IMG/VR virus record: IMGVR_UViG_3300010885_059546
Span: 1 to 52,720 of that record
Length of the DNA: 52,720 bases
Strand: one strand, 5' to 3'
Origin: a virus
Positions 1-47,851 of this stretch are shown piece by piece. The notes beneath the pieces are model-generated. The model made no database searches. It was not told the origin of the DNA and saw only the letters and a list, made by a program, of their open reading frames with translations. The stretch's first letter is position 1, and every line of letters starts with the position of its first letter. Both the position numbers and the translations under genes were made by a program.

Positions 1-1079
1 GCATCGTCGAGAAGACCACGAGCATAGCTCGTCAGCGTGGTTGTGCTGGCTGTGCCCGAGCCCGTGAAGTACGGGAGAGCGTCAGCAGCACTGGTCAAGC
101 CGGCGAGAGCCGCAAGTTCAGCATCGTAAGCCTGAACGTCCGTGCCAATCACAACACCGAGGTTGGTGCGAGCAGTCGGAGCATCCGTCGCGCCCGTACC
201 GCCATTAGCGACGGGAACAGCCGAAGCGTTCCACGTGCCAGTCGTAACCGTTCCGAGGGTAGTGATGGTGTTCTGGCCTACATAGGTGCTGGCAATGTCG
301 ACGCTGTCGGCGTTGACAGTGATCCTGTCGGCCGTGCCGCCCACGTCGAGGGTGTTGCCATTCTTCGTGAGACCTGCGCCGGCTGTAACCGAACCCGCAC
401 CACTGAACTGCGTGAAAGCAAGAGCAGTCGTGCCAAGAACCACCGCTCCGTCAGTCGTCAGAACCCAACCACTGTCGTGGTTGACTGTTCCCTCTTCGAC
501 GAATGTGAAGAGACCGGAAGTAACATCATCATTGGAATTTGCGTCGTCAGACCTCGACCAAGCTCCAGCGGCCACGACATAGATGCCGTTCTCGCTGGCG
601 ACAGTCTGGGCCTTGACGAGGACTCGGTTTCCTGCGACCACCGAGACACCGTCGATCGTCTGAGCGCCCGAGAGCGTGATGTTCGCTGTCGTTGCGGCTC
701 TGACCGAATCTTTGACATCAAGACCTTGCTTGACGGCATCGACGTATTCCAAAGTCGCAAGCCTCTTGTTTCCAGCGTAGACGTCGCCGCCCACGTACAA
801 ATCAGCACTGTCGGCAATTCTGACGGCGCCCGATCCGTTCGGATCAAGCGTGAGGTCGCCGTTGGCGTCAACCGAGCTGATCGTGTTGCCGCTAAAATTA
901 ATATTGTCTACTTGACCGACCCTGTAAGCAAGACTGTTCCACACTGTGGAGCCGTCGCCAACCTTCATCTTCTTTGTGTCCGTCTCCAAACCCATCTCAC
1001 CCGCGGACAATATCGGGTTGAGGCTTGACCAGGTAGCCGCCAAGCCCCTGCGTATCTGAATGATTGTCTCTGCTGCCAT
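1..1079 (-). CDS. tail fibre / receptor-binding protein, C-terminus cut by window edge
   Basis: The reading frame opens at an ATG behind a good ribosome site (AAGGAG) and runs off the left edge after about 359 codons, so the C-terminal tip is missing. Residues 1-50 resemble the small N-terminal domain of the major tropism determinant and related fibres (IQIRRG near residue 7, GEMGLETDT near 27, KVGDGST near 39). Residues about 122-230 form a module that recurs in the 1180-residue baseplate protein encoded at 30519-34061. Further on, NGGTGAT and ARTNLGV match the short repeats of phage fibre shafts. It should be a virion surface fibre that contacts the host. Its base composition is visibly richer in G and C than that of its neighbours, which may mean recent acquisition. 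The fibre assignment is fairly secure; the receptor is unknown. Confidence 0.8.
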   Translation of the reverse strand, partial: MAAETIIQIRRGLAATWSSLNPILSAGEMGLETDTKKMKVGDGSTVWNSLAYRVGQVDNINFSGNTISSVDANGDLTLDPNGSGAVRIADSADLYVGGDVYAGNKRLATLEYVDAVKQGLDVKDSVRAATTANITLSGAQTIDGVSVVAGNRVLVKAQTVASENGIYVVAAGAWSRSDDANSNDDVTSGLFTFVEEGTVNHDSGWVLTTDGAVVLGTTALAFTQFSGAGSVTAGAGLTKNGNTLDVGGTADRITVNADSVDIASTYVGQNTITTLGTVTTGTWNASAVPVANGGTGATDAPTARTNLGVVIGTDVQAYDAELAALAGLTSAADALPYFTGSGTASTTTLTSYARGLLDD

Positions 1080-2178: not shown

Positions 2179-3996
2179 TTACCATCCGAATTCTTTGAGT
2201 ATCGGGCTGTTTCTTCTCATATCTTGCTTTTCGTCTATAGAGAAGTTGTCGCTTGGCGATTTTATCTCGAACCAGTCTGAAACACCACCTTCTAACACTT
2301 CTTTTTTTATGTCGTCCATCGGCCCTCCCTTCTTTAAAATGGATTGTTCGACATATTCTACATTTAAGGGCATACCCCTAATCCTTTCATCTCTCACATA
2401 CAACGCTAAGCACAATGCCATGATGGCGTCGTCGTGCTTTCCCTTTATGGCTTCGGCTCTCTTTTTCTGCGGGCTGTATATGAATGTTTTAAGCTCATTG
2501 ACCAGACGGTGGCTGTTTATCCTCACAGTCCCATTCATTAGTCTGTTCTGCATCGCCTCCAAGAATATTGGTCTGTTGGACGGCCCCATCTTGATTCCTA
2601 GTTTCGTGGATGACTTTTTACTTTCATAATAGACAGCCTCGTATCCCATGTCGTTGCTTAGGCTATTGAGTACCGCACCTCCGACCGAGTTGTTTTCCAC
2701 GACTACTGTGGCCGTGTTGTAATATATCCCGATTTGGTTGATTATTTGCGCAAATATGTTCGGCGGCACCAAGTTGCTATAGAATTCACACACTTGCTCC
2801 AGGCTCACGGCGTCTATTATTTCAAAGCATGAGTTGTCCCCGTCTCTGCCCACGCCTTCCGCGCAATCGACTCCGATTATGTACTCGTGACCGGCCATTG
2901 GCTCCTTCCATATCCATAAAGCACCTTCCTCCCACTGTTGTTTCTGCTGCGACTCGTTGGTCCATTTATTGAAGGCTGTTCTTACGGGCACTGTGCTTCT
3001 GGCTCCTCTGTCGTATTGACTTATGACGTTAGAGGAGATGTAGGTGTCGCCGGACCCGAGGAAGTCTCTCAAGACTTCTTGTTGCCAGCCCTTCTCTCCG
3101 AGATTGGCACGCATAGCTTCGGCCCATTCCGGATTTGCGTAGACCGGGTGCTCCCAGTAGTCCAAATCTATGATGTTAAAAAAGTTTCTGCCCGCTTGGG
3201 CCTCGTGATATGTTTCCTCATACCAGTTCCCCAACCCGTTGACAGTAGAAATTATTTCTATATGTCCGCCCGTTGCGATCACCGGATACATCGCTTTCCA
3301 GTGTTCGTCCATTTTGTCTATGAAGGCGGCCTCGTCTATCATAATGTAAGTGGCTGACTTACCACGAGCCGCCTCTGGCGTGTAAAAGCATATTTTTGAT
3401 CCTACGTCGTTAAAACTCTTTTCGTGCTTGGTTATGTCTGCATTGTTTTTGTCGTACATCCAATAGGGGAAGTTGTCCATTGCTCTGCGGGCTATGTCAC
3501 CGGCGGCGAGCGCCTCCCTGTCCGTCTTTGACAAGAAATATATTTGCTGGTCTTTCTGGAACATGCACTTCCACAAACCCCAGAGAACAGTTACGGTGCT
3601 TAATCCTCCCTGTCTGAACTTGGATATCATGTTAAACCTATTGACGTCGTACTCGTTAATGACCCTCCTCTGGTACTTGTAGAGCACGAATGGTATGGTT
3701 CCGAATTTGGGGTGCAATATTTTCACGTACCGGTGACAGAAGTAGAGAAAACTCTTTGCGCACTTTATGACTTCTTCTATCTGCTTATCGGCGGAGAAGG
3801 AATTCAAGTCTTCTACCTTCTCGCCGACTGGAATGTCCATCTCGTACTGGCTCAACTCATAGAACGAAGAATAGATTTTGTCCCATTCCGGATCCCGGAC
3901 CATTTCTTTTGTGTTTTTGAACCTAAAATAGAAGTCCTCGAAGGACTCTGTCGGATATGCCAGCCCTTCGGGCATCTGATTTTTTCCATTTTTCAT
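2179..3996 (-). CDS. terminase large subunit (gp17-like packaging ATPase/nuclease)
   Basis: This protein of about 605 residues is the motor that threads DNA into the prohead and cuts it. The N-terminal ATPase has a Walker A-like loop (KFRQGGLST, near 127), Walker B with catalytic acid (YIMIDEAAF, D222-E223) and a coupling motif (STVNG, near 251). The C-terminal RNase H-like nuclease shows its acidic residues in IIGVDCAEG (D378), VVVENNSVGG (E435) and KHDDAIMAL (D523/D524). The canonical GKT lysine of Walker A is absent, a variant I recall from other phage terminases with an RQ-x-G-x-ST loop. A TTG precedes the ATG by one codon; I chose the ATG. No clear ribosome site is seen. Its order and length match the T4-type family. 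Confidence 0.95.
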   Translation of the reverse strand: MKNGKNQMPEGLAYPTESFEDFYFRFKNTKEMVRDPEWDKIYSSFYELSQYEMDIPVGEKVEDLNSFSADKQIEEVIKCAKSFLYFCHRYVKILHPKFGTIPFVLYKYQRRVINEYDVNRFNMISKFRQGGLSTVTVLWGLWKCMFQKDQQIYFLSKTDREALAAGDIARRAMDNFPYWMYDKNNADITKHEKSFNDVGSKICFYTPEAARGKSATYIMIDEAAFIDKMDEHWKAMYPVIATGGHIEIISTVNGLGNWYEETYHEAQAGRNFFNIIDLDYWEHPVYANPEWAEAMRANLGEKGWQQEVLRDFLGSGDTYISSNVISQYDRGARSTVPVRTAFNKWTNESQQKQQWEEGALWIWKEPMAGHEYIIGVDCAEGVGRDGDNSCFEIIDAVSLEQVCEFYSNLVPPNIFAQIINQIGIYYNTATVVVENNSVGGAVLNSLSNDMGYEAVYYESKKSSTKLGIKMGPSNRPIFLEAMQNRLMNGTVRINSHRLVNELKTFIYSPQKKRAEAIKGKHDDAIMALCLALYVRDERIRGMPLNVEYVEQSILKKGGPMDDIKKEVLEGGVSDWFEIKSPSDNFSIDEKQDMRRNSPILKEFGW

Positions 3997-4005
3997 CAAC
4001 GTATT

Positions 4006-8492: not shown

Positions 8493-8520
8493 TTGACTAT
8501 AATAGTTCCGTCACTAGAAT
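8493..8520 (+). promoter_or_regulatory. possible sigma-70-like promoter
   Basis: TTGACT and TAGAAT are separated by 16 bases, ending 25 bases before the ATG of the acidic protein. A second TATAAT lies at 8498-8503 without a good -35 box. Confidence 0.4.
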
Positions 8521-8545
8521 GCGTATTAACAGGAGGCTTTTGAAC

Positions 8546-8935
8546 ATGCGTGATGATTTTGAGAGTCAAGTTGAAGATATTTATGGAAATGACTGGTTCC
8601 ACGACTATTCGTCTCTGCAAGGCAGACTAGACGACGACGAGGAAAATCATCAATACGATGAAGACGAAGACGTCGAAGAAGGCGAAGATGGCATCACCGA
8701 CTGGGATTGGAAAGAAGCCTCCGAAGAAGATGATGACGAAGACGATTTAGAAGAATTGGAAAGTGACGACGACGACGAAGATGAGGAAGATGAGGACGAG
8801 GACGACGACGACTGGGACGATGAAGATGATGACTGGGATGATGAAGATGACTGGGAAGATGAGGACGAAGATGAAGACGAGGACGAAGATGAGGATGAGG
8901 ATGAGGACGAAGACTGGGACGATGACGACGATTGA
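8546..8935 (+). CDS. extremely acidic low-complexity protein
   Basis: I chose the ATG at 8546 because AGGAGG lies nine bases before it; an in-frame ATG at 8519 has no ribosome site. The product has 129 residues. From about residue 30 onward it is nearly all Asp and Glu with regularly placed Trp (DWDDEDD units), encoded by GAC/GAT/GAA/GAG runs. Such proteins can mimic DNA and block host DNA-binding proteins, act as histone-like chaperones, or bind divalent cations. It is probably disordered. Its stop codon abuts the end of the convergent gene. The DNA is simple enough to change length by slippage. Confidence 0.65.
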   Translation: MRDDFESQVEDIYGNDWFHDYSSLQGRLDDDEENHQYDEDEDVEEGEDGITDWDWKEASEEDDDEDDLEELESDDDDEDEEDEDEDDDDWDDEDDDWDDEDDWEDEDEDEDEDEDEDEDEDEDWDDDDD

Positions 8936-18214: not shown

Positions 18215-18491
18215 CGTACTTCTTGTGTATGTAAAAAGATCCTGATTTAACTTCTATCAAATATTCGTCTCCATCCACCTTTTTTATCGACCCCCCATCC
18301 TCGACGAATTCTTTTGCCATTTTCGGAACCCTTCCCTCCTCGGGAATCATATGGTCCACTATCCTTTTGGCAGAAAATTTTGTCTCTACGGGAGACCCCT
18401 CTAAGCTTTGATCCATACTCGCATCAAAGTCACTCTGTGATCTCATCCATTTTTTGAAGTTGTCTGGGTTCAAATTTAAAAAATCACTCAT
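18204..18491 (-). CDS. small protein with FKKWM-type N-terminus
   Basis: This 95-residue protein starts behind AAGGAAAGC and overlaps the preceding gene by 8 bases. Residues 8-17 (NPDNFKKWMR) resemble the N-terminal F-K-x-W motif found in several other proteins of this window. The C-terminal half is a small beta-rich part (SIKKVDGDEYLIEVKSG). It may be targeted to the head, but the motif is not at the extreme N-terminus and no clear protease site follows. Function unknown. Confidence 0.5.
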   Translation of the reverse strand: MSDFLNLNPDNFKKWMRSQSDFDASMDQSLEGSPVETKFSAKRIVDHMIPEEGRVPKMAKEFVEDGGSIKKVDGDEYLIEVKSGSFYIHKKYVIV

Positions 18492-19344
18492 TGCTTTCCT
18501 TGCTAAAAAAAGACGGCAATTCGTCCTTTTCTATATACGCAGCATTTTCATATTCCACTCCGGAAGAGCAATCTGCTGTCTTTACTCCCGCCTTTCTCAG
18601 CCAGTGCAATTGCTTGTCTATGATGTGCTGACACATTATCTGTTGAGGATATTGATATAGTCCGTTCTTCATTTTGATTGCGCCTGGACGATCGTCCTCA
18701 AACGCTTCGTCACAGCACAAAAGAGCCAGTCTCTTCACTCTTTTTTTCCATGCGAAACTGATGGCCGCGCATATGGGGTTTCTATAATCGTCCAAGCACA
18801 TGTTGTTTTCTTCGCTACCTATGCCAGAATAATTAACATCCGGCGATGCTTTATAGAAAAAGGGCTGGTTTCTGTATTCCTTAAAAAACTTAGGATTGGT
18901 TTTTGTCGAAGCAATTAAGTTTGGATAGTATCTGTGCTTCTTTGGCAAAAAACCCACCGCCTCTGGATAGGGATTATTGATCAAGTAGAATGTCATTGTT
19001 CTTTTAAACTCGGCATCATTGCCGACCATATCCCATTTTGCAAGGCTGCCGTTCACACCTATTGTCTTTAACAACGCGTTAGGCATCGACGCAAGTATCT
19101 TCTGCTTGTCTTTCCATCCATAACCATCTGACATAATTATCAAATTATCCATAGAGAAGTCGTCCGCGTCATCCATCGTCATTCCGGAAACTCTCTGGTT
19201 TGAGCATTCATTACTTAAAAAAAGTTGTAAATCTCCGTCGCCTAGGCGATTTATGTCTATTGGCTTTGCTGGGAGACAGAGATTCCTTACCCACACGCTA
19301 TCAGCCAAGACATACTCGTTATTCTTAAATTTCTTGATTCTCAT
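18484..19344 (-). CDS. hypothetical protein, possibly DUF115/glycosyltransferase-like
   Basis: The start is an ATGA overlap with the upstream repeat fibre; the product has 286 residues. LIIMSDGYGWKDKQ (near 65), KTIGVNGSLAKWD (near 88) and a C-terminal part with RLALLCCDEAFEDD are reminiscent of the DUF115/motility-accessory type of sugar-transfer protein. The similarity is weak and by eye. Translational coupling to a fibre suggests a role in making or modifying it, for example by glycosylation. It could equally be an unknown enzyme. Confidence 0.45.
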   Translation of the reverse strand: MRIKKFKNNEYVLADSVWVRNLCLPAKPIDINRLGDGDLQLFLSNECSNQRVSGMTMDDADDFSMDNLIIMSDGYGWKDKQKILASMPNALLKTIGVNGSLAKWDMVGNDAEFKRTMTFYLINNPYPEAVGFLPKKHRYYPNLIASTKTNPKFFKEYRNQPFFYKASPDVNYSGIGSEENNMCLDDYRNPICAAISFAWKKRVKRLALLCCDEAFEDDRPGAIKMKNGLYQYPQQIMCQHIIDKQLHWLRKAGVKTADCSSGVEYENAAYIEKDELPSFFSKESNE

Positions 19345-22300
19345 TTTTTGTTGCAAGGGACAAGGGCGAAGCAAGCTTGTTCGTCGCCGCCTAGAAGATT
19401 TGACGCGTCAAATTGTATCGGAACAGGTCCACCCTTGTAAACGAGAGGTATTTCAAGATTTTCGGGGATCTCAAGGCGAGCGACTATTTCGCTTGGCATC
19501 TTTACCTCAATTGAGTCAGGTATGCCTACAACTCTTATGGTCTCCGGTATTTCGGATCCATCAATCCTTATAACGGAAGGAAGGTCTATTGGCACAAGGC
19601 TTATCATTCCCGGCAAGGAACTTGTGTCTAGTTTAATAGAATTAGGTATTTCGGTAGCATCAACTTTTATGCTCTGTGGTATTACGGCTTCATTGATAAT
19701 CTTTATTTCTTTGGGAAGAGCGTCAACTTGATAGAGTTCTATCTTTTCCGGAAGATCGGATCTTATATTTATGAATTCCGGTATGTCATGTTTTACTTGT
19801 ATTTCCGGGAACTTAGGAACCACTATCTTTATTTCTGAAGGTATCCCTAGATCATTTATCTCTATGTCATAATCTTGTGTATTGAAGTCATCAACGAAAT
19901 TTTCGTCCAAGGTCATTCCTCTTCGGAATGGTGCGCCCGGCGAACTGCTGGGGCATTGCACAGTGACCACGCACTCTACGGTCGGCGCCGCGCCCCAAGT
20001 GACACTAATCGTCGGAGGACTGCCCCATTCGAAACTTCCTCCTACTTTGGGCGCTTCTCCCCATGTGAAACTTCCCGATACGGTCGGAGGACTACCCCAA
20101 GTAAAAGATGCTCCTTCTATCTTTGGAGGGGTCCCCCAAGTAAATGAACTGCCTTCTATCTTCGGAGGACTACCCCAATAGAACGAACCACTCTCTATCT
20201 TAGGAGGAGTGCCCCAAGTAAAAGAGGCTCCTTCTATTTTCGGAGGAGTGCCCCAAGTGAACGATCCGCCCTCTACTTTCGGAGGACTTCCCCAAACAAA
20301 TGAGGCGCCTTCTATCTTTGGAGGAGTGCCCCAACTGAAAGATCCACCCTCTATTTTTGGAGGACTTCCCCAAACAAATGAGGCGCCTTCTATCTTCGGA
20401 GGAGTGCCCCAACTGAAAGATCCACCTTCTATCTTTGGAGGAGTGCCCCAACTGAAAGATCCACCTTCTATCTTTGGAGGAGTACCCCAACTGAAAGATC
20501 CACCTTCTATCTTCGGAGGAGTACCCCAACTGAAAGATCCACCTTCTATCTTCGGAGGAGTACCCCAACTGAAAGATCCACCTTCTATCTTTGGAGGAGT
20601 GCCCCAGTAGATTGAGGCTCCTTCTATCTTTGGAGGTTTCCCCCAATTAAATGAACCTCCCTCTATCTTCGGAGGAGTACCCCAACTGAAAGATCCACCT
20701 TCTATCTTTGGAGGATTTCCCCAACTGAAAGATCCACCTTCTATCTTTGGAGGATTTCCCCAACTGAAAGATCCGCCTTCTATCTTTGGAGGTTTCCCCC
20801 AATTAAACGATCCACCTTCTATCTTTGGAGGATTTCCCCAACTGAAAGATCCACCTTCTATCTTTGGAGGAGTTCCCCAACTGAAAGATCCACCTTCTAT
20901 CTTTGGAGGTTTCCCCCAATTAAACGAACCTCCTTCTATCTTTGGAGGAGTTCCCCAACTGAAAGACCCACCTTCTATCTTTGGAGGTTTCCCCCAATTA
21001 AACGAACCTCCTTCTATCTTTGGAGGAGTTCCCCAACTGAAAGATCCACCTTCTATCTTTGGAGGAGTCCCCCAGTAGATCGAGGCTCCTTGTATCTTTG
21101 GAGGATTGCCCCAATTAAAAGATCCACCTTCTATCTTTGGAGGAGTCCCCCAACTGAATGACGCTCCTTGTATTTTTGGAGCAGTGCCCCAATTAAATGA
21201 CGCTCCCTCAACTTTTGGCGCTGGGCCGAAATTAAAGGTGGCGGGCGATACCTTGGGAGCCGGGCCGAAGCCAAAACTGGCTGGGCTAATCTTTGGTGCG
21301 GGGCCAAAGTTAAAATTGGCTGGGCTAATCTTTGGTGCGGGGCCAAATCCAAAACTGGCTGGGCTTATCTTTGGTGCGGGACCAAAGTTAAAATTTGCTG
21401 GAGTGATCGTTGGAGCAGGACCGAAGAAAAAACTGCCCGGCGTTATACCCGGAGCAGGACCAAACGTAAAACTACCCGGCGTTATGCCTGGGGCAGGACC
21501 GAAGAAGAAACTACCCGGCGTTATGCCTGGGGCAGGACCGAAGAAGAAACTACCCGGCGTTATGCCTGGGGCAGGACCGAAGAAGAAACTGCCCGGCGTT
21601 ATGCCCGGAGCAGGACCGAAGAAAAAACTGCCCGGCGTTATACCAGGAGCAGGACCGAAGAAAAAACTGCCCGGCGTTATACCAGGAGCAGGACCAAACG
21701 TAAAACTACCCGGTGTTATGCCCGGAGCAGGACCAAACGTAAAACTACCCGGTGTTATGCCCGGAGCAGGACCAAAGAAGAAACTACCCGGTGTTATGCC
21801 CGGAGCAGGACCAAAGAAGAAACTGCCCGGCCCAATGTTAGGGGCTGGACCAAATGTGATGGTTGGTATTATAAATGGAGCCGGTCCAAAACTAGGTACG
21901 CTTATAGTTATGGATATTGGAGGTATAATAATACTAGGTACGTTTGTTGGAACGACGTCCAAGCAAGGGAACATTATCTGCGGCAGTTCTATAGGAGGCT
22001 GCGGTACTATCGGGGGTATTGTGATGTTTGGAAACGCTGGCACTTGCGGTATAGGAAGCGTAAATGGCTCTCTGGTGGGCGTTTCCGGAACTTTAGTGAA
22101 ATTTCTTGATTTTGGAGTCTGTACCACTGTGCACGTTGGACTGACGACAGTAACGACAGGATCTATGGTCGCACCGGCAGCGTATGTGTAAGTTCCCGAT
22201 TGTGTTGAATTCGTTGATTGTCCGTCGCCAAAGTCTAAAGTGAAAGTGTCAAATGTGCCATTTATAGAGATCCGATACTCAATTGTGGTTCCTTCACAAT

Positions 22301-23030
22301 TGGGAGTCCCCTCGGGCAGCACGTTTGTGTCTAACACCACATCGACGCAATACGCGTCATCCAGACAAATAGGTTGGTTCTCAAGCTTGGTTATTTTATC
22401 TTGAAGTTCAAAAATGTACTGCTCGACCGCTAAGGTTGCATCCACGAGTTGATTGTGGTGTTCAGCCATCACGAATCCTCTGACCCACGAGCCTGAAGGA
22501 TTAAATTTCGTGGGCTTTCCTCCTACGCTTCGGGCACACCTCTTGAGTTTGAAAACTTTGCCCTCAAACTCAAAAGACAAACCGGACTCGGAATATCCGA
22601 TTCCGCTTCTGACCACCTCTATGTTTTTCACAGATCCATTAACAACATTTGCCTTTAACTTGGCCCCCGAACCGGCACCCAATATCTTTATTGCTGGATT
22701 TTTGTATCCAAAACCTCCGCTTAGTACAGACACGCTCCTTAGGGAGCCGTCTTCATTAACTTTTGGATTTCCAAGTAAAGCGCCTGCGCCTTCGACACGA
22801 GTCTTCTCCACGGCGTCGTAATAGAACATCTCCCCTGAGATGTTAGCGAATCCGTTGTCTGCCCATATTTCGTTCTGGTTAGGCCCCACAGGCTCAATCT
22901 CTATCTCTTCTCCCCAAGCCGAACTGTCTTTGGTGGTCTTGGCTTCGCTCGTGTTATACACGAGGAATAGAGTCCTGTCGGAATCTATCGCAAGGGGAAA
23001 TGATGGTTGAGGGGGAAATCCTGTTGGCAT
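19341..23030 (-). CDS. giant repeat fibre protein (PKD-like domain, about 50 repeats of 13 residues)
   Basis: This 1229-residue protein is probably an extended tail fibre. Residues 1-200 share an N-terminal domain with the next two upstream genes (LFLVYNTSE; HHNQLVDATLAVEQ near 190), likely the attachment part. A degenerate PKD-like domain follows (LDFGDGQST, about 225-310), then a Pro/Ile-rich stretch. Residues about 380-1020 are 13-residue repeats: first about 18 FGPAPGITPGSF-type units, then about 32 WGTPPKIEGGSF-type units. Residues about 1050-1190 form a second repeat class of IPxxIxV steps every 11-12 residues. The end is Cys-containing (CFALVPCNKK). It is coupled to a downstream possible sugar-transfer gene. 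No family matches the repeats that I recognise. Confidence 0.8.
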   Translation of the reverse strand: MPTGFPPQPSFPLAIDSDRTLFLVYNTSEAKTTKDSSAWGEEIEIEPVGPNQNEIWADNGFANISGEMFYYDAVEKTRVEGAGALLGNPKVNEDGSLRSVSVLSGGFGYKNPAIKILGAGSGAKLKANVVNGSVKNIEVVRSGIGYSESGLSFEFEGKVFKLKRCARSVGGKPTKFNPSGSWVRGFVMAEHHNQLVDATLAVEQYIFELQDKITKLENQPICLDDAYCVDVVLDTNVLPEGTPNCEGTTIEYRISINGTFDTFTLDFGDGQSTNSTQSGTYTYAAGATIDPVVTVVSPTCTVVQTPKSRNFTKVPETPTREPFTLPIPQVPAFPNITIPPIVPQPPIELPQIMFPCLDVVPTNVPSIIIPPISITISVPSFGPAPFIIPTITFGPAPNIGPGSFFFGPAPGITPGSFFFGPAPGITPGSFTFGPAPGITPGSFTFGPAPGITPGSFFFGPAPGITPGSFFFGPAPGITPGSFFFGPAPGITPGSFFFGPAPGITPGSFFFGPAPGITPGSFTFGPAPGITPGSFFFGPAPTITPANFNFGPAPKISPASFGFGPAPKISPANFNFGPAPKISPASFGFGPAPKVSPATFNFGPAPKVEGASFNWGTAPKIQGASFSWGTPPKIEGGSFNWGNPPKIQGASIYWGTPPKIEGGSFSWGTPPKIEGGSFNWGKPPKIEGGSFSWGTPPKIEGGSFNWGKPPKIEGGSFSWGTPPKIEGGSFSWGNPPKIEGGSFNWGKPPKIEGGSFSWGNPPKIEGGSFSWGNPPKIEGGSFSWGTPPKIEGGSFNWGKPPKIEGASIYWGTPPKIEGGSFSWGTPPKIEGGSFSWGTPPKIEGGSFSWGTPPKIEGGSFSWGTPPKIEGGSFSWGTPPKIEGASFVWGSPPKIEGGSFSWGTPPKIEGASFVWGSPPKVEGGSFTWGTPPKIEGASFTWGTPPKIESGSFYWGSPPKIEGSSFTWGTPPKIEGASFTWGSPPTVSGSFTWGEAPKVGGSFEWGSPPTISVTWGAAPTVECVVTVQCPSSSPGAPFRRGMTLDENFVDDFNTQDYDIEINDLGIPSEIKIVVPKFPEIQVKHDIPEFINIRSDLPEKIELYQVDALPKEIKIINEAVIPQSIKVDATEIPNSIKLDTSSLPGMISLVPIDLPSVIRIDGSEIPETIRVVGIPDSIEVKMPSEIVARLEIPENLEIPLVYKGGPVPIQFDASNLLGGDEQACFALVPCNKK
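19975..21900 (-). repeat. tandem 39-bp coding repeats, about 50 copies in two sub-families
   Basis: The DNA repeats with a 39-base period inside the giant fibre gene. The consensus product is [FW]-G-x-[AP]-P-x-[IV]-x-x-[GA]-[SN]-F-x. Copies nearest the protein N-terminus (about 21230-21900) are of the FGPAP type; the rest are of the WGxPP type, with T, N or K at the third position alternating in blocks. Several neighbouring copies are nearly identical, which shows recent duplication and predicts length variation. Confidence 0.9.
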
Positions 23031-23051: not shown

Positions 23052-25367
23052 TCAATAAACTCCCATTTTGAATTGAGCCCCGGAGGGTCTTGTCTTCGCC
23101 ATGGAAAATGTGAGATCCGTGCCATTGAATTTAATCATGGCTTTTTCGCTGTAATCATAACTTAAATAGGCTATTCTGTCACCATCAGAAGCGGCCAAAA
23201 GCGTATTAGATCTATCGTCAAAGTTTGATTTTTCGGTATCTTGTACGGATCTGAAAGATAAGGACGAAGAATTTGCGCGTCCAACCTCCCATGTGAGTGA
23301 GGTGTCATTCCAAGCACATATCTCTCCGGAGTTGTTGAACATGAATATTCCATTATTCAAAGCGACGAGCTGACCCTCTAACTTGACCGATCCTATCATA
23401 TCAGGGAGTTTGGTAATTGTTCCGTACGGATCTGAAACTGTTCCTTTTGTTTTGTAGAAATCTGATATTCTAAAAAACTCATTTACTGATGAGTTTCTGA
23501 GAATGTATCCTATTGAGTCTTTCCATGCCGTCCTGTATACGGCGAAATATCCGTTTGTGGCTACTTCGTTATCATCAAAATAAGAGGGATGATCCAATAA
23601 CTCGTCCGCTCCATTCTCGAAACTGGCTGTCGTAAGATCCACGGGGGCAGAAGCCGACTGCGATAGAATGTCGTAGTCTAATCTCTGGGCCAACGCTTGG
23701 TTTTGACTTGGGGTTGTTGCGGATCCTTGACCGAATATGAAGTAGGTTCTGTCTTGCGAATTTAACGCGGCCCAATTCCAAGGTCTGTTGGTTATTGAAT
23801 TTACGTTATCATAATGATCGTCGAATGCATTGTACTTTTTGATATTTATGTTTTTGTCATCTAGTACCGAACCACCCGATGCCCACATTAAAAGAGAATT
23901 GCCCTTGTTTCCCGAGCTAGATGTCCCAGCAAGTGTAAACTCCACATTTCTTCTAAACTCTTTCTTTGCTTTACTGTATGTCCCTTCGAAATAAGGCGCT
24001 TTGTCGTTCTCAACGCCATCCGAACTTGTATTTCCGTACGACAATGGACTCTGAGACAAAAATGAATCACTTCTGTTCAAAGAAAGCGTTTGATTACCCA
24101 GCGTCTTAAAGGTCTCGCTTCCAAGAGCGAATTCATAAGCTTGCAATATGCCGCTACTGTTGCTGTTAAGTGTCTTGAAATTAAATAACCAAAGATTCTT
24201 GGATTCTATTATGTCTATAGAGTCCTTGTATTGGGTTATCCGGTAAGATCCATATTTTGTATCCACACGAAGAATTAAATCGTAGTATCCTCCCAAGCTG
24301 TATGAGGCTCTTGCTACATTAGAGTTCGTGTGAGGCAGATCGTCCCCAAGAGACCAAGTGTACTCTTCTATGGTGTCCATTGGAGTGCCCAAAAGTTCCC
24401 CGCCGTATGTATACCCAAGATTATCAGGGTTTTCTCCGTCTGGAACCTCTATGTTTATGAAAGCGTTTGCGATTGATCTTATCTTCGGGTATATTCCGTT
24501 TGCCAAGTCGCCTTGTCTATAATTCTGGGACGCTCTTGGTATTATCTTTATTGTGGCCTCTTCCGGAGCGTCATTCTTAGCGTTGATTAACTTTTCAAAC
24601 ACCACTTCGTTTTCACCGTATTGGTTCTCCACAGTCAGTTTCACTGTATATAACCCTGGCAAAGTGTATGATTTTGTGATTTTCTTACCTGAAATCTCCA
24701 CGCCGTTTATTACTTGCTCCCTAGAAGTGTATTCTTCCATGGTTTGCGAGACGATCTCTAGAGAATTCGACCCGTCGCCAAAATCCCAAGTGTGTTTGAA
24801 AGGTCCGTCTCCGAGTCTAACACTTTCGTCATTAAATCTGACCTTAAATGAAGGACTTAGCCTCCCGATTGCACTATCCACTGTGAACCAAGCCTTCGGA
24901 GAAAGAACCAATTCGTTTAAGAAGTTTATTCTAGCGGTTATGCTCGTTTCACTTGGAGAGTATTTCGTCCCAACAAATTTTTCTATCTCGACAAGAGCAT
25001 CTTTTAGATAGTTGTGATGAAGGTTAAGCACATTCATCGTAACATTTGTTATTTTTTTAGGTTTTGATATCCCCAGTCCGATGAATTCCGGAAGTAGTTC
25101 CATTTCATTGAAACTTGTAGGCGTTCTTGAGTTATAGTAAAAACTCAATGCTCTCTTGTCTATGTCGCTGCATTGCTCTGTAAGAGTTATGATTCCGGTC
25201 GGCGGAAATTTTTTGATAACCTCATAGTCTCCTTCCACCAATATGCTTGTGTCTCCTGGCTTGTAGTCTTCGAGAAGTCTTACTCTTAAAGAATCATGGA
25301 CCAAGAAAAGATTTTTATCGGTATCCAAAGAATTCGGAAAGTCACTGGGTTTGGGTATGTTTGTCAT
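23052..25367 (-). CDS. tail fibre with two PKD-like domains and a large C-terminal domain
   Basis: This 771-residue protein has GGAGG before the ATG, which overlaps the upstream stop as ATGA. Residues 1-150 resemble the N-terminal domain of its two neighbours ([26 protein letters not shown]). Two PKD-type beta-sandwich domains follow: WDFGDGSNS (about 195) with [13 protein letters not shown], and a second with WSLGDDLP and [13 protein letters not shown]. The C-terminal 380 residues are rich in aromatic, Ser and Asn residues and look like a lectin or propeller-type head ([17 protein letters not shown]). It is expected on the virion surface, where PKD domains act as stalk or sugar-binding modules. 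Confidence 0.75.
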
Positions 25368-26368
25368 GTTACCTCCAATGACTCGCTCAAAAACACCCTT
25401 CGAATAACATCGCCCGCAAAACCTACTAGTAAGGATGGCTGATATAGTCCTTTTTCAAGGTAGGTCACTTCCACAAAGTGTTTGTTTTTGTCTAACTCTA
25501 CATATTTTTGCATTTCTTTGCCATCTATCTTTACTTTTCCATCAAATACCCAAAAGCGTTGACGAACATCCCCGTCAGTTTGATCCATGAATAGGTAAGT
25601 TTTTGCACCTGTTCTTTTTGCATAGAAGAATGCTTGCTGCTCATCCTTGGAAACTGTTATGTAGTTATTCTTCGTAGATATGCCTTGGGCTCCCGAACTA
25701 GTTATCAGATGAAGTTTGACGGTATACGTACCTTCTCTCGTATAGGTGTGCGTTGGGTTTTGCTCGGTACTTTGCCCTCCGTCTCCGAAGTCCCAAAGGT
25801 ATCTTATTATGTCTCCCTCTGAGAAACTCTGAAATCTCACAGAAACGCCCGGCTTCATCTTCTTGGGGAATGCTCTAAACACCGCCCTTGGCGAAAAAAA
25901 CTTGGTCTCAAGATCCTTTAGTTTCCGGTTCAAAGATCCGCTTTCTGGAAAATCCTTTAACCCAAGTTTTTTCTCTATATTCAACAAGGCATCTTTCACT
26001 GCGTTGTGAGGTTCGGCTGTGACGGCATTGGTTGCCCAAGATCCCGAAGGCCATTGATTTTGCCTCGAACCAGCAAACCCTCTGATCAAACCCTTGAAGG
26101 TCGTTTCTGTTTTCGATTCATAATAAATCAGTTCGGCCTCGCCCGGTCGGCCGGCAGGAGGTCCGACTCTGATCAAACCCTTCCCAGGAAAAGAGGCAGT
26201 GTTCGCTACGATGATCTTCTTTCCATTAAACGGCAGTCCTGCTACAAGTTGAGTTTCCGCGTTGTTCTTGACCTCATAAAGGCTGTCTTTGTCATCCGCA
26301 ACGTCCGGAAAAAGGGACAAGTTGCCCGCAACATAACCCTTGTCCAAACTCGAAACTCGTTCAGCCAT
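25364..26368 (-). CDS. short tail fibre with PKD domain
   Basis: This 334-residue protein is the smallest of three neighbouring related genes. The N-terminal domain (about 1-150) has [18 protein letters not shown] and [18 protein letters not shown], similar to the other two. A clear PKD domain covers about 165-255, with [25 protein letters not shown]. The last 80 residues are a small beta-rich part. Gene overlap at both ends (TAATG and ATGA) ties it tightly into the operon. It may be the branching or base part of a compound fibre. Confidence 0.75.
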
Positions 26369-28245: not shown

Positions 28246-29313
28246 TTAGGTGGGCGTGGGCGTGGGCGAAGTTGTCGGAGTAGGAGAAGCCGTTCTGGTG
28301 GGCGTAGGAGAAGCCGTTCTGGTGGGCGTAGGAGTGTTAGTTGGAGTTCGGGTTGGCCATGGAGTGCGAGTCGGGGTATGCGAAGGCCATGGGGTGCGTG
28401 AAGGGGTAGGTGTAGGCCCGGTTCCCGAAGGCGTTGGCGAAAGCGATGGCGTAGGAGTCGCACCAGTTCCGGATGGTGGTGGTGGTGGGCTCATGGGAAA
28501 CAAATAGGCTTCATCAAAGTCTATTCTGATCACATCGTAATTCGTCAATTCCCTATTTAATTCAAAGACTCCCGTTGTGTGGTCTTGGCTTTTTATATAT
28601 GTCGGAATCCACGGAGCATTTGGATCGCTGTAATCAGGTACGTCGACTCCCACCTTCGTCAATCTGAAACCATTTACATATACACGAAGCGAATCCTCCT
28701 CAAAAGGAGTATTAATGGCAGTCGTCTTGAAGATCTTGTAAGTTGGAGCGGAAGGAATGTCATATGCAGGCATGAAATCGTAGTGATGCTTATGCGCTGC
28801 TTCCGGAGGAAATATAGAGTGGGCTTTTAATATGTCTGGAGCTTCAAAGTCAAAGAAAATAGTTGGAGAGTTTCTTATTCGCAGCGTGCCGTTAGTACTG
28901 TTGGGGAACAGCACGAAATTTCCTATGGTCGGGAGAGTGTCTTCTATCTCGATCTCCAACTTATTCGATCCCTTGGCGATCTCGGACAACTTGCTTCTTT
29001 CCTCCGAAGTCATCCTCACGTAATCCATACCGTCTGGGCCCGTCCCGTCCGAATGGTGCCCTATATTGTGAAGTGACTTGTCCACGGCCCCAGCCTTTAT
29101 GTCACCCGAATCTTTCAAAGACGCGTCCAGCCTATTGCTAAGCGACCCAGCGGTTCCGCAAGAACCACGCAGTATGTCCGTATTAGCATCAACTTGAATG
29201 TTAACTAAACCAATCCTTGTCAGTATGTTCTGCAAGGGAAGGTTATCATAGAGGTAGTGATATGGCTGATTGGCTTCATATGTTACTTCTGGAATGCTGT
29301 TAATCTGGGGCAT
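28246..29313 (-). CDS. fibre-like protein with Pro/Thr/Ser mucin-like tail
   Basis: This 355-residue protein has AAGGA before the ATG. The first 280 residues are a beta-rich structural part ([29 protein letters not shown]). The last 75 residues are almost only Pro, Thr, Ser, Gly and Arg in repeats of the type [11 protein letters not shown]. Such tails are extended and in other organisms are O-glycosylated. It sits in the tail operon before a glycosyltransferase-like gene. It is most likely a virion surface protein; glycosylation is speculative. Confidence 0.65.
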
Positions 29314-36070: not shown

Positions 36071-38203
36071 TTAATTACCTTCATAGGGAGGAGGACAGTT
36101 TACGCCGATGCTCTTGTCCATCATCATTAGTATGCTTATGGGTTGAGCCTCAAGTGATGCCGATGCGAAAACTCTATCGCTAGCCACGAGCTTGGATCGC
36201 TTTGTAATGGGGTCGGTGAGCAAGACCGCCACTTGACCGACGCAAGGCACACACTTCATGCTTTCCGATTCTGGTGGAGGCGGACAATCCTTGCCCGCCA
36301 TAAGCAATATGAACTTGTCTGCTAAAAACGCATGAATCTCGGCTATATTGAAGTAAAAATTGCACGACATGTGAATCGAGTGCTTAGAAACCATTGTCAT
36401 CCAATTCTTTGGACCTAGACATCCACCCTTGCAAAAATCATCTGGAGGTGTGGTTTTTCCCACCCCTACGACAGTCACGTGGTCTCCTTCCGTCATACAC
36501 ATGTAGTCGCCACCGGCCCTTACGAAGATATAGCCGCAATAGTCGCTCTCTTGCATTCTTATGAAGTGAGGCCCGCAGCAAGCATCATACTGAGGAGCCA
36601 TGATCTGGATATACTGGCTCTGGGTGTCTTTCTGGTGGTTGTCGTCGGCCATCATTATCTCTAAGCCGTATCCGGTTCTTATCCTTACGAACGCGTCAGT
36701 AGCCTTGTTTGTGGGCATTCCGCCCTCTCTCCTCTTCGGGCCGCACTGGTCGTTGTTCTCGTCGATCATCTGGATGATGTGATTAGAGGTGCTGTGAAGT
36801 TCAATGCCCCTCCTCGGCCCCGCACGGCAGTTTTCGCCTTGCGTATCGTCGTTCATCTCTATTCTGTTGCCGGTGGCCGTGAGCAGCCGTATGAAGTTTT
36901 CGTCGCCCCTCGTTTCAGGTAATCCATCGGGTTCGACGTCACTGATCATTATCTGGTGACCATGGGCGGACTTCCAAGTCGTCTTGCCTTTAAAAACTTT
37001 GTCACACCCATAGTCGAACATCTGGATGCCACGCTCCCAGTTGTTTTTTCCCTTGGGTTCTTTTACCGAGTCGTCCATCCAGAATGTGTGTCCGCTCAAC
37101 GAGGTCATCTGTATTCCGGACTGAGGAAGCGTCGTCTTGTCGACCTTGTTATTCTGGGGATTGCCAGGCCCAGAATATGGGCGGCACTCACTTCTATGTT
37201 TAAAATAAGGATTTGCACATTGCCCCTCGGAACTGCCACCTCCCCCGCCGCCACCTCCGCCGCCACCTCCTATCATCATCACACTTGGAGACACAGGCGT
37301 GTTGTCACCTTGTACATCTGGGGGGCACTGATCAGGTTTTTCTATCGGCTCATCACCCTCATTACACTTGCTGAAGTCCCCCGATCCGCACCCGCACTTT
37401 GGATTAGCCCATTGCGCGGCCGGATGCACCCTATCGTCCTTGAGTATCAGATGGTTTCCTTGAGCCGACTTGATTTCAAGCCTCTGCCAACGGAAATTAC
37501 ACTTGTAGTTTCCATCGACCATCTTGATCATGTGCTTCTGCGGCGTTTTCCATCCGTATATGTTCGGATATGTTATCTTATTTCTTGCATCTGGATCATT
37601 TTCAAAGTCCGATATCGTATCAATATCTATTCCATTGTAGTTTTCCGTATTCCATGGAGGAAAAACTTGCGTTTCGTCGTCGCCGAGAAGATATCCGCCT
37701 CTGTGTCCTCGGTGTATCTTTTCATATTCTGGAACCGGAAAGTTCCATCCTGGTGTCCTATCCCTGTCCCAAGTCGTTCCGAGATAGTAAGGCCACTGTC
37801 TATTCCCAGCCTCGAATATCAAGCACAACTTTGAACCAGCAGGAGGCACCCAAGTGCATCCTGAATCATCGAAGCCGCCTTGATTTGATATTGGATATGC
37901 CCAAGGAAGTGAATTGACGGCGGACTCCATCATATGTTGCAAAGGACTAAAGTATCTTACTCTTCCCATCTTCCAAGGGTCTATAGTGCTTATGCATATA
38001 GCCGTGTGCATACCATATATCGCCTCTTGCTGGGCAGGCACGCCCATATTATCTTTGACGCTAGTGGTCACTAACGCCTTCACTCCGTAACCCATATCAG
38101 AAAATCTCTGCTCCACTTGGGAGAGTCTCTGATCCATGATTCGGATACTGTCAGGGATTGAGCAATTGTCTAATTTACTGATTCTTATTTTTTTGTCTGC
38201 CAT
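36071..38203 (-). CDS. central spike protein, gp5/VgrG-like with beta-helix, Cys-rich
   Basis: This 710-residue protein starts with a short coiled coil (about 15-40). The OB-fold domain covers about 60-165 (MGRVRYFSP, LPWAYPISNQGG, GCTWVPPAGSKL, PYYLGTTWDRD). A long beta-helix needle follows, made of repeats such as GIQMTSLSGHTFWMDD and NRIEMNDDTQ. Around residues 320-330 there is a run of about 11 Gly. No lysozyme domain is seen. It is unusually rich in Cys (KCGCGSGDFSKC, QCANPYF, CPPPPES), so disulfides or metal binding in the needle are likely. It pierces the envelope after sheath contraction. Confidence 0.85.
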   Translation of the reverse strand: MADKKIRISKLDNCSIPDSIRIMDQRLSQVEQRFSDMGYGVKALVTTSVKDNMGVPAQQEAIYGMHTAICISTIDPWKMGRVRYFSPLQHMMESAVNSLPWAYPISNQGGFDDSGCTWVPPAGSKLCLIFEAGNRQWPYYLGTTWDRDRTPGWNFPVPEYEKIHRGHRGGYLLGDDETQVFPPWNTENYNGIDIDTISDFENDPDARNKITYPNIYGWKTPQKHMIKMVDGNYKCNFRWQRLEIKSAQGNHLILKDDRVHPAAQWANPKCGCGSGDFSKCNEGDEPIEKPDQCPPDVQGDNTPVSPSVMMIGGGGGGGGGGGGSSEGQCANPYFKHRSECRPYSGPGNPQNNKVDKTTLPQSGIQMTSLSGHTFWMDDSVKEPKGKNNWERGIQMFDYGCDKVFKGKTTWKSAHGHQIMISDVEPDGLPETRGDENFIRLLTATGNRIEMNDDTQGENCRAGPRRGIELHSTSNHIIQMIDENNDQCGPKRREGGMPTNKATDAFVRIRTGYGLEIMMADDNHQKDTQSQYIQIMAPQYDACCGPHFIRMQESDYCGYIFVRAGGDYMCMTEGDHVTVVGVGKTTPPDDFCKGGCLGPKNWMTMVSKHSIHMSCNFYFNIAEIHAFLADKFILLMAGKDCPPPPESESMKCVPCVGQVAVLLTDPITKRSKLVASDRVFASASLEAQPISILMMMDKSIGVNCPPPYEGN

Positions 38204-40667: not shown

Positions 40668-43600
40668 TTAACAACTCCCAGGAGTTCCATTATTGACGAC
40701 GCTTCTATTGGCACTATCTCCAACTCTTCCATATCTGCTATTACCAAAAAGACCAGCATGAACTGGCATCATTGAATCTTTTGTACTTCCCGCCTTGCCG
40801 CCATCATCACCCACCACGGAAGACCCCTTTGGAGTCATCAAATCAACTAACTTGTTAATGGCATCTTTTATTAAACCTAGTCGATCAACTTGCTCGTTTG
40901 ATGCATCCTCTATTCCGGCAAGTTCCTTTACCGGAAGCTTGCCGGCCTCGGCTTGAGATCCTGCCTTGTCCCTCAATATAGTGTTTGTTATGTCACGCAG
41001 ATGCATGGGCTGGACGGCACCCACATCCGACTCTCCCTCGGGCTTGAGCATTGGAACCGCGTGGTGGCCTACGGGTGTCGTTAGCGTGGCTGCCTTGTTC
41101 TCCAACCCAACTTGTGTCTTTAGCAAAAAGTCCTCCAGCCCAGAGGTGCTAGTTGCAGAAGGTATCAATTCACCCCCTCCCGCATTGATTATATCTGCCT
41201 CCAAGTTGCTCATCGCCTTGATAAATTCTGGGTTCCTCTCCACGGACTTTATGGGATCCCAAGCAGAAGCGTCCGTAGGTGTGGGAAGAACTGGGGATAT
41301 CGAGGCGTTGGCCTTCGCGATAATATCGTTTGTTTTTAATGTTTCTTCTTCGACTTGCTTTATCAATTTGGATACAAAAGAGACATTTTTCGCAGGGTCG
41401 GCCAAACTCTTCAAGTTGTTCAATTCAGAAATTACGCCCTCAAGAACCTTTTCTGTATGCGTGTCATGAACGTATATGGATCCTGGATTCTGGCCCATTT
41501 CCATGGTTTTTTCCATGGCTTTGCCTTGCTCAACTTGTTGCTCCCCGTAGCCGAACATGGACTGCAACCCACCCCAAGCCGAACTCAACCCTTGCTTGAT
41601 GGCCCCGACAACAATCTTGGCGTTGTCCACCGCAGCCATTCCCGTTTCTTGAATTGCCATCCCTGCCTTCGATCCGGCCTCCCAGACGTTCCCTTGCATC
41701 AAGTTCGCCCCTGCTCCGTAGAGGCTCCCCACGGCATGCGCACTGCTTGGGCCTTTTTCCTCCATCGTCTTTGCTTGCTCGGCGGCTGTTTCTTTAAATC
41801 CTGCCGCAGCATCTTCAATTCCCCCTAGCCCCGGTATCCAACTCTTCATCCAGTCCCAGATCCCGCCCAATGAAGATTTCATTCCGTCATACAAACCTCC
41901 TAGCCATGCCCCCCAAGCAGACGGATCAAGCATCTTTCCCATGTAATCGCTCAAATCCTTTGACTTCTGAAGAGCCCAATCGACCGCGCCTCCGGCCGCC
42001 TCGTATGCTCCGTACGCCTTCTCTCCTATCCATGAACCAACGGTATTAAATCCGTCCTTGACCTTGCCTCCAACCCACATCGGGAAGTCAACAAAGGTTG
42101 ATTTTAATCCACCGCCAAGAGCATTTAAGGCTCCGCCCATGTTGTCATAGATGCTATCTGCTAACCATCCACCACCCAAACTTCCAATTATTCCGCCGAT
42201 AGCAGTCCCTATAGGAATGCTAAGCCCAGCAGTAAGAGGAGCCAAAAGAGCTCCTATTGACGCTCCGGCCGCAGCCCCAGCGAGGCCACCGGCAAGGCCA
42301 CCAGCAGCCCCAACCGCAGCCTTCCCAGTACTCTCTCCCGTCATTTTTCTAACGCCGAAATCAATTAGAGGGCCGATGACAGGAAGCTTCTTCGCAGCCA
42401 CACCCACAAACTTTGATGCCTTTCCTAAAAAGCCAAGGGCCTTGGGCGCCGCCTTTGCGATGTCATCGGCACTAGACAAGACAACTTTTGCGGCGTCATC
42501 AGCCGCTGTGGCCTTCGAAGTCGCCCTCGCGGCTTTGCCCATGCCGCCGCTCATCTTCGCAAACGGATTGGCTGCCTTCGCAACATCGTCCGTTTGTCCA
42601 AACATCTTCCTTAGCCAGCCGCCCTTTTGGGCGACCTTTCCAGCAGCCTTTGCAGCGTCGTCCGCCGTAGATGCCGCCGGTTTCGCCACCGCCGCCGCCA
42701 CCTTGCCAGCAGTTTTCGCTGTGTCTTTGAGCATCCCAATTCTTTTCATGAAGTTGGTAATTGGTGTAAATAGGTAGTCGCTAAACTTTTGGCTAATCGT
42801 TTGAATTGCACTGGATATGGGTTTTACAAGCCAATCGTCCGCGAACTTTGCGATCTTTGATCCCAGGTTTTTAAACGGAGTGATAATGTAATCGTCTGCC
42901 CACTTCAATACTTTACCGCCAAGTTCCTTAAGAGGCTTCCACATGTAATCGTCTATCCACTTTCCGAATCCCTTGAGCCATCCAAGAATTTTACTGAACC
43001 ACCCGCCCGAAATATAATCCAACAGTCCTTTCCAAGAACGCATGGCTATCATGACATAGTCGTAAAGATTCTTCTTGAACATAGAGAAGAAGTCATCCGC
43101 ATATGGCGAGAGCTTCTGCCATATCTTTCCGGCTCCCTTTATAAACCTTCCGAGCATCTTTATCGGCGACTTGACGAAAGCATTAAACAAGCCCTTCATT
43201 ATTCTGAATGGAAGTTTTAAGAAGAATTTGGCGACGTTGAAACCAAATTTGCCCAAAACCATCAGAACATTCTTTGCCATTCCAACAAAGAATCCGACAA
43301 TCGCATAGCACATGTCGGGTATTATTGAATTCCATACTAGTATGTTACCAAGCCACATAAAAGGAGATATTATGTCTCCCACTATACTCCATATGAAATT
43401 TACTATGGGCTTAAAGATCCCAGTTACTGCATCCAAGAACGCACTTCCCATGCCCTCAATATGCTTCCAGAACGAAGAAAAATCTAAAGTTAGCAACGAC
43501 CATATTGCCTTTCCGAAACTCACTATCCATTTAACAGCCGCCGCTACAATATTTGCCATTATTTCTATTACCATCACCATTGCGCTTATTGCTTTGACTG

Positions 43601-47306: not shown

Positions 47307-47851
47307 CACTCTCCAGAGTTAATTTGACCCTGTTGGGGCTGATTTAAAGTAGTCATTTGGCTGGCTTTTGGATTTATCTGTTGTCTTATCTGCTCTTGAA
47401 CTTGCCTTCTTATTATCTGAACCTCGGCGGGATCGTAAGACCTCACTGCCGACATGATTCTCAAAAGGAAATTGCTGTCGAGAACCTTCATCTGGCGCAC
47501 GCCTGCTCTCTTGTAGGAGCGGTAGGCGGCCTTAAAGTTCTCGTCGTCGGAAACGGACTTGTAAGAAAAGCCCATTTTGCCGGTTCTCGCAATCAATTCT
47601 CTTATGGACGGGAATGTTAGTCTGTGGAGATTAATTCCAGATAATTTGTCTGAGGCTGGATTGTTGTCGATTATTATTACTAGTGGATACGGATCGTGCT
47701 TCCAAAACGTGTAGTTAAAACTGACGAGGCTACCCTTTACCGCCACGAAGTTTCCCTTCATTCTTTGGTTGGGGTTGGCGGCAACATCTTGGCCGACAGG
47801 GGCGAAGAACTGCTCAAGTAAACTTTTTCTGTTACGGGGTTGGAGTGCCAT
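47306..47851 (-). CDS. virion-associated hypothetical protein upstream of tape measure
   Basis: This 181-residue protein ends in a TGATG overlap with the tape measure. Residues about 30-85 form a beta-barrel (VAVKGSLVSFNYTFWKHDPY, PLVIIIDNN, INLHRLTFPSIRELI). A helical, basic part follows and then a Gln-rich tail (RQVQEQIRQQINPK). Similar proteins occur in T4-like phages, where the role is not known to me. Tight coupling suggests tail assembly, perhaps as a tape measure chaperone. Confidence 0.55.
   Translation of the reverse strand: MALQPRNRKSLLEQFFAPVGQDVAANPNQRMKGNFVAVKGSLVSFNYTFWKHDPYPLVIIIDNNPASDKLSGINLHRLTFPSIRELIARTGKMGFSYKSVSDDENFKAAYRSYKRAGVRQMKVLDSNFLLRIMSAVRSYDPAEVQIIRRQVQEQIRQQINPKASQMTTLNQPQQGQINSGE

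Follow-up and report, generated by a model that had tools for sequence, protein, structure and literature searches.

Long shafts of repeated units are a known kind of appendage on phage tails. Among viral shafts, triple beta-spirals (adenovirus, reovirus) and triple beta-helices are built from short tandem units with fixed hydrophobic and Gly/Pro positions, and the triple beta-spiral is a trimeric shaft with two-strand units of about 15 residues. A further design is the beta-bracelet shaft of Orsay virus delta, from a nematode RNA virus, which is a pentamer with a unit of eight residues, divided into a five-residue strand and a three-residue loop (PMC7565637).

The window analyzed in the present study, i.e. 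the whole stretch of DNA of 52.7 kb, is IMG/VR virus record IMGVR_UViG_3300010885_059546. One of its genes codes for a protein with a long array of short repeats (Table 1). This is probably a modular protein that forms a rod in the virion of a large phage with a contractile tail, having an anchored N-terminal domain, an oligomeric spacer rod and a constant C-terminal end. Together with its relatives it makes up an undescribed family with constant ends and a rod of varying length and unit; an open-access literature search found no description of the rod repeat or the family.

Table 1. Features of the window discussed in the text (positions in the window; residues of the rod protein).
Feature	Position	Strand	Remarks
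Terminase	2179-3999		
MptE-like (PF01973) gene	18484-19344	-	ATG overlaps the rod-gene stop (ATGA)
Rod protein gene, whole	19341-23030	-	1229 aa, ATG start
C-terminal part, residues 1027-1229	19344-19952	-	Degenerate IPxxI repeats, end motif CFALVPC
Junction unit WGAAPTVECVVTVQC, residues 1012-1026	19953-19997	-	Unit 50; WGxPP-type element, single-copy in most of the family
Rod block 2, residues 614-1011	19998-21191	-	31 WGxPP-type units
Rod block 1, residues 381-613	21192-21890	-	18 FGPAP-type units
Proline-rich neck, residues 307-380	21891-22112	-	Predicted largely disordered; pLDDT 30-72, lowest at residues 355-388
PKD-like (Ig-like) domain, residues 224-306	22113-22361	-	Pfam PKD_4 in relatives; Foldseek; pLDDT 70-92
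Putative N-terminal anchor domain, residues 1-220	22371-23030	-	Beta domain plus helix 188-218; AF2 pLDDT about 90 (residues 30-180); profile homology to upstream genes
GGxGY-type insert in anchor domain, about residues 78-156	22563-22799	-	Alignment; PHROG 438/2885/708 baseplate wedge matches
Upstream neighbour with PKD domains	23052-25367	-	771 aa, paralogous N-domain
Upstream neighbour with PKD domain	25364-26368	-	334 aa, paralogous N-domain
Tape measure	40668-47309		

Of the described proteins, baseplate wedge and virion structural proteins (PHROG 2885, 438, 708 and 4406) share by profile an N-domain with GGxGY and HHN motifs like that of the rod protein, and a fold search with its model detected a likeness in structural proteins of Synechococcus phage S-ShM2 and Agrobacterium phage Atu_ph07. 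However, no rod, neck or IPxxI C-terminal part was recognised in these baseplate-type proteins by profile or fold searches. The sole relative in the annotated phage collection lies in the uncultured phage LR756511.1 (595 kb), where it carries no annotation. It shows the same domain order, PKD genes upstream, an MptE-like gene downstream and an IPxxI C-terminal part, but it is 36% identical, has units of about 11 residues (SFDCISFCQPP) where the window has 13, and is without the GGxGY insert. With PKD domain proteins the rod protein has a single divergent copy in common. Triple beta-spiral and beta-helix shafts are comparable by analogy only, the unit having 13 residues in the window (10-13 in the family) and an aromatic-Gly-x-Pro-Pro pattern, and neither a PDB sequence search nor Foldseek detected a likeness of the rod to such shafts. 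Orsay virus delta is likewise an analogue, with a short strand and a short loop per unit arranged head-to-tail along the fibre; no sequence relation to the rod was detected. At the rises given for triple beta-spiral, triple beta-helix and beta-bracelet (15 A per 17, 31 or 8 residues, respectively; PMC7565637), the 644 residues of the window's array would extend over about 57, 31 or 121 nm. A pentapeptide-repeat beta-solenoid, which is a right-handed quadrilateral helix, was rejected, as the period of the rod is 13, not 5, and the Foldseek matches reached E 0.76 or worse (prob 0.04 or lower).

Profile searches (Pfam, PHROG) showed that the window also codes for an OB-type baseplate spike, gp25, a baseplate J-like wedge and a Tail_P2_I-type gene, and these, with terminase and tape measure, show that the window holds the tail module of a phage with a contractile tail. 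The module closes with the rod gene, which comes after the two PKD-domain genes, and the synteny of the tail cassette around the rod gene is kept in about 100 loci. Comparison of the N-domain of the rod protein, which has the motifs LDSDxTLFLV, NGF, ExxYYD and AEHHNQLVDA, with those of the two upstream genes demonstrated homology in both cases (hhalign 99.4%, E 1.6e-21, and 98.4%, E 6.5e-15). PHROG matches to baseplate wedge or virion structural proteins were obtained for the rod protein and its neighbour, those to the baseplate wedge falling on residues 93-153 of the rod protein. These two comparisons place the rod protein among the baseplate/tail structural proteins that share an HHN-type N-domain. 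Paralogy, profile matches, the fold matches to cyanophage and Agrobacterium phage proteins and the conserved cassette with baseplate J, gp25, Tail_P2_I and tape measure all argue for a rod protein carried by the virion, the N-terminal domain of which, by homology and synteny, would anchor it on the tail or baseplate. Elsewhere in the module, a protein encoded at 28246-29313 (minus strand) ends in a Thr/Pro-rich repeat and has a relative in 82 loci, and poly-Gly runs occur in the tape measure (17 residues, 46818-46868, minus strand) and in the OB-type spike protein (12 residues, about 37235-37270, minus strand). A small protein with a long Asp/Glu/Trp tail and repetition at the DNA level is encoded at 8519-8935 (plus strand).

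A whole-protein search of viral contigs yielded five full-length relatives and one fragment, and profile scans extended this to about 115 loci on contigs of up to 511 kb, the two end profiles giving 37 and 80. No relative was found in bacterial and archaeal genome contigs with the C-part profile, nor in viral contigs with the LR756511 protein as a single sequence. Two loci (L015, L016) were dropped as repeat-only compositional matches lying in another protein or frame, and matches in Escherichia phage PHB20 and Streptococcus phages were confined to the repeat and judged to be low-complexity. What the sequence-only reading called a giant fibre is neither singular nor outsized among its relatives; it is one member of a widespread family, whose open reading frames have the ends in common and not the rod. 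In 48 full-length members, the window included, the N part with baseplate-type and PKD-like domains comprises 269-362 aa (CV 0.08), the C part with IPxxI repeats 124-251 aa (CV 0.09) and the rod 16-1047 aa (CV 0.80), single part lengths being approximate because the boundaries were placed by motif. Constant ends around a variable rod are a further argument for the preferred reading, and the window protein shows the complete set of family features, i.e. N-domain, PKD-like domain, neck, a rod of 10-13 residue units and an IPxxI C-part, followed by an MptE-like gene. The PKD-like domain carries an LDFGDG motif and resembles solved PKD domains in Foldseek (TMt 0.52-0.60); Pfam PKD_4 matches 16 of 52 members, the window protein taken alone falling below the Pfam cut-off. 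One member, L052 (IMGVR_UViG_3300049617_000097, G018:C1:8416-9228), combines an almost absent rod (16 aa) with a 6522-aa open frame that contains the tape-measure match.

The conservation of the C-terminal part bears on the question of whether the protein is a true receptor-binding tail fibre, in which a C-terminal adhesin tip would sit on the rod and the repeats would set its reach. The gene is situated in the tail module, as expected of such a fibre, and four relatives (L118, L120, L121, L122) pair the N-domain of the rod protein with other bodies (repeat, Kelch-like or Cys-rich; 842-3049 aa), Kelch/beta-propeller Pfam matches occurring in the set to which they belong. However, close relatives are more alike in the C-part than in any other part of the protein (95/92/74/76% identity vs 91/80/65/65% in the N-part), and its length is near-constant, which is the opposite of usual tips; the C-part consists of short IPxxI repeats in which no adhesin domain was recognised, and a PHROG scan of 50 C-terminal parts gave no match. 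A variable C-terminal tip is thus not what the rod protein shows, receptor binding appears unlikely, and a docking or assembly end is suggested rather than a receptor tip. Of the term fibre, as used earlier for this protein, a repetitive structural rod in a tail/baseplate gene cluster is supported, and the receptor-binding sense is not. The four relatives with other bodies possibly represent alternative appendages in the same slot and fit an anchor that serves different appendages, which also speaks for the modular rod protein. In that preferred reading the anchor is followed by the PKD-like domain and a flexible proline-rich neck, the repeat units would act as a spacer in which short strands and Pro turns of several chains pack into an oligomeric beta-rod, and the conserved C-terminal part would either fold into a terminal structure that is constant or dock with one. 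As whole units are gained and lost, the rod would be free to change in length and in unit type, both ends being held fixed by their partners.

The array itself had been described from the sequence as about 50 repeats of 13 residues in two blocks with fixed aromatic, Gly and Pro positions, and this was borne out, as were the coordinates given for the gene. Fifty [FW]Gx[AP]P units span residues 381-1024 (644 aa), 18 of FG type followed by 32 of WG type; units 2-46 have exactly 13 residues, unit 1 has 12 and the last few have 12, 12 and 10. Identity at lag 13 is 0.77, far more than the 0.167 that 1000 shuffles reached at most at any lag, and Tandem Repeats Finder gave a period of 39 bases, in agreement with the 13-residue unit. 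Invariant positions are F1, G2, P3, A4, P5 and F12 in the FG block (17 units counted) and W1, G2, P4, P5, K6 and S11 in the WG block (27 units counted). Long open reading frames on the plus strand across the array (e.g. 21106-22191) are mirror-frame artefacts of the repeat. Likewise upheld was the view that no named fibre family has this repeat: the rod matched no family in Pfam, PHROG or PDB, a PDB sequence search with the whole protein and the rod returned nothing relevant, and no Foldseek match of the rod model was better than E 0.4.

High proline (0.18) and glycine (0.19) contents could point to an intrinsically disordered, proline-rich tether in place of an ordered rod, i.e. an entropic spacer, and the block means of rod pLDDT, which do not exceed 73 in the monomer, would agree with this. 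In the AF2 monomer of residues 1-560 (52 rows), where the folded N-terminal domains and the neck reach the values of Table 1, each FG unit shows one three-residue strand per 13 residues at pLDDT 53-67, and in that of residues 861-1229 (49 rows) the WG units reach 62-73 with short strands in register with the unit, while the C part remains at 43-57. Strands thus recur once or twice per 13 residues, with pLDDT values higher than those of the least confident neck segment (30-46) of the same model. Aromatic and hydrophobic positions are fixed in every unit, and identity between neighbouring WG units at codon positions 1/2/3 is 0.935/0.876/0.639, a silent-site pattern which shows that selection on the protein is the main reason for the likeness of the copies. 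A disordered tether is therefore rather improbable, and the check for pure disorder that the sequence-only reading had set was passed in the monomer. The regular strands favour the modular rod protein, while the intermediate confidence in the rod and the low confidence in the C-terminal part count against it. Of the earlier proposal of a new solenoid or extended rod, the repetitive structural rod stands and the solenoid does not, as the monomer gives no confident fold; its short strands are regular, with confidence values in the intermediate range, and amount neither to a confident solenoid nor to disorder. A rod in need of several chains would produce such a monomer model, but so might other things.

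Across the family rod periods are mostly 10, 11, 12 or 13, and the only 13-residue rods in a tree built from the ends are those of one clade of six members, among them the window. The period changes at least 13 times on this tree, which is a rough count as weakly periodic rods give noisy calls; clear switches separate L040 (10) from its neighbour L041 (11) and L115 (12) from its neighbour L111 (11). Change by whole units, which also speaks for the modular rod protein, is seen at close range. L041 and L042 differ by one 33-base unit only across the gene and 4.3 kb of flank, which may reflect either genuine length variation or different assembly, and the window and L018, with ends 94% identical (tree columns), differ by rod gaps of 78, 117 and several times 39 bases and consist of 18+32 and 23+27 FG+WG units, respectively. 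In units 2-12 of the FG block, neighbours agree at silent codons more often (0.815) than under random dealing (0.674 +/- 0.03); in the WG block neighbours do not (0.631 vs 0.639 random), and second neighbours are higher (0.72). These patterns point to local duplications of one unit (FG) and two units (WG), the copies of which are not freshly made. The recent expansion proposed earlier is hence supported with regard to local duplication and not with regard to fresh copies, and expansion is better regarded as ongoing in the lineage than as a fresh burst. Collapse or expansion of repeats during short-read assembly is a very improbable source of the repeat number. Although many loci end inside the rod gene (13/116 open 5', 27/116 open 3') and the L041/L042 pair differs by a single unit, units differ at silent sites, which makes most of them distinguishable to an assembler, and the same type of unit recurs 50, 48, 34, 20 and 19 times in full-length relatives obtained from different samples.

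At least one W(G/D/N)xP element stands right before the C part in 52 of the 64 members complete there, nine of the 52 having four or more copies, and two or more FGPxP units are present in 23 of the 64. Since most members have a single junction WGxPP element, the WG block of the window looks like an amplified junction unit. Rod length showed no significant correlation with the length of the tape-measure ORF (Spearman 0.32, p 0.13, n 24); phylogenetic contrasts in 24 members gave r 0.54 (sign-flip p 0.014), and the relation is too weak to claim that rod length tracks tail length.

The gene downstream of the rod is a near-constant neighbour. In 55 of the 57 loci with enough downstream DNA, its relative adjoins the rod gene or lies within about 1 kb, and in about 20 loci, the window among them, rod stop and MptE-like start overlap (ATGA or TAATG). 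Pfam MptE-like (PF01973) matches 13 of 24 aligned members (best E 2.6e-6), the window's own protein being unmatched, and an NCBIfam search of the protein gave no match. PF01973 includes archaeal pterin pyrophosphokinases and Maf flagellin glycosyltransferases. It is conceivable, though doubtful, that the MptE-like protein modifies the rod, e.g. by glycosylation of Ser/Thr, and that the rod is a sugar-bearing scaffold, which would add to the rod model and not replace it. The Pfam match in 13 of 24 members, the family membership of the Maf enzymes, the near-constant gene position with its overlap in about 20 loci and a Ser in nearly all rod units are consistent with this; the pterin pyrophosphokinases of the same family, the NCBIfam result and the retention of the gene beside rods of very different composition (L126, L132) are not in its favour.

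What is new is that units of 10-13 residues form an exchangeable rod, that the ends of this rod protein are fixed and that its cassette includes an MptE-like gene. Tentatively, this may represent an undescribed beta-rod architecture of huge phages, in which Pro-capped units of 10-13 residues are exchanged whole between docking ends, possibly sugar-modified and built with a translationally coupled MptE/Maf-like enzyme. What began as one odd repeat protein is now recognisable as a defined and conserved tail-module component of many uncultured phages, for which neither Pfam nor PHROGs holds a model. The near-constant MptE-like neighbour offers a testable link to rod modification, and rods of differing length and period between the same ends provide a natural series for the tuning of appendage length and the unit-by-unit evolution of beta-rods.
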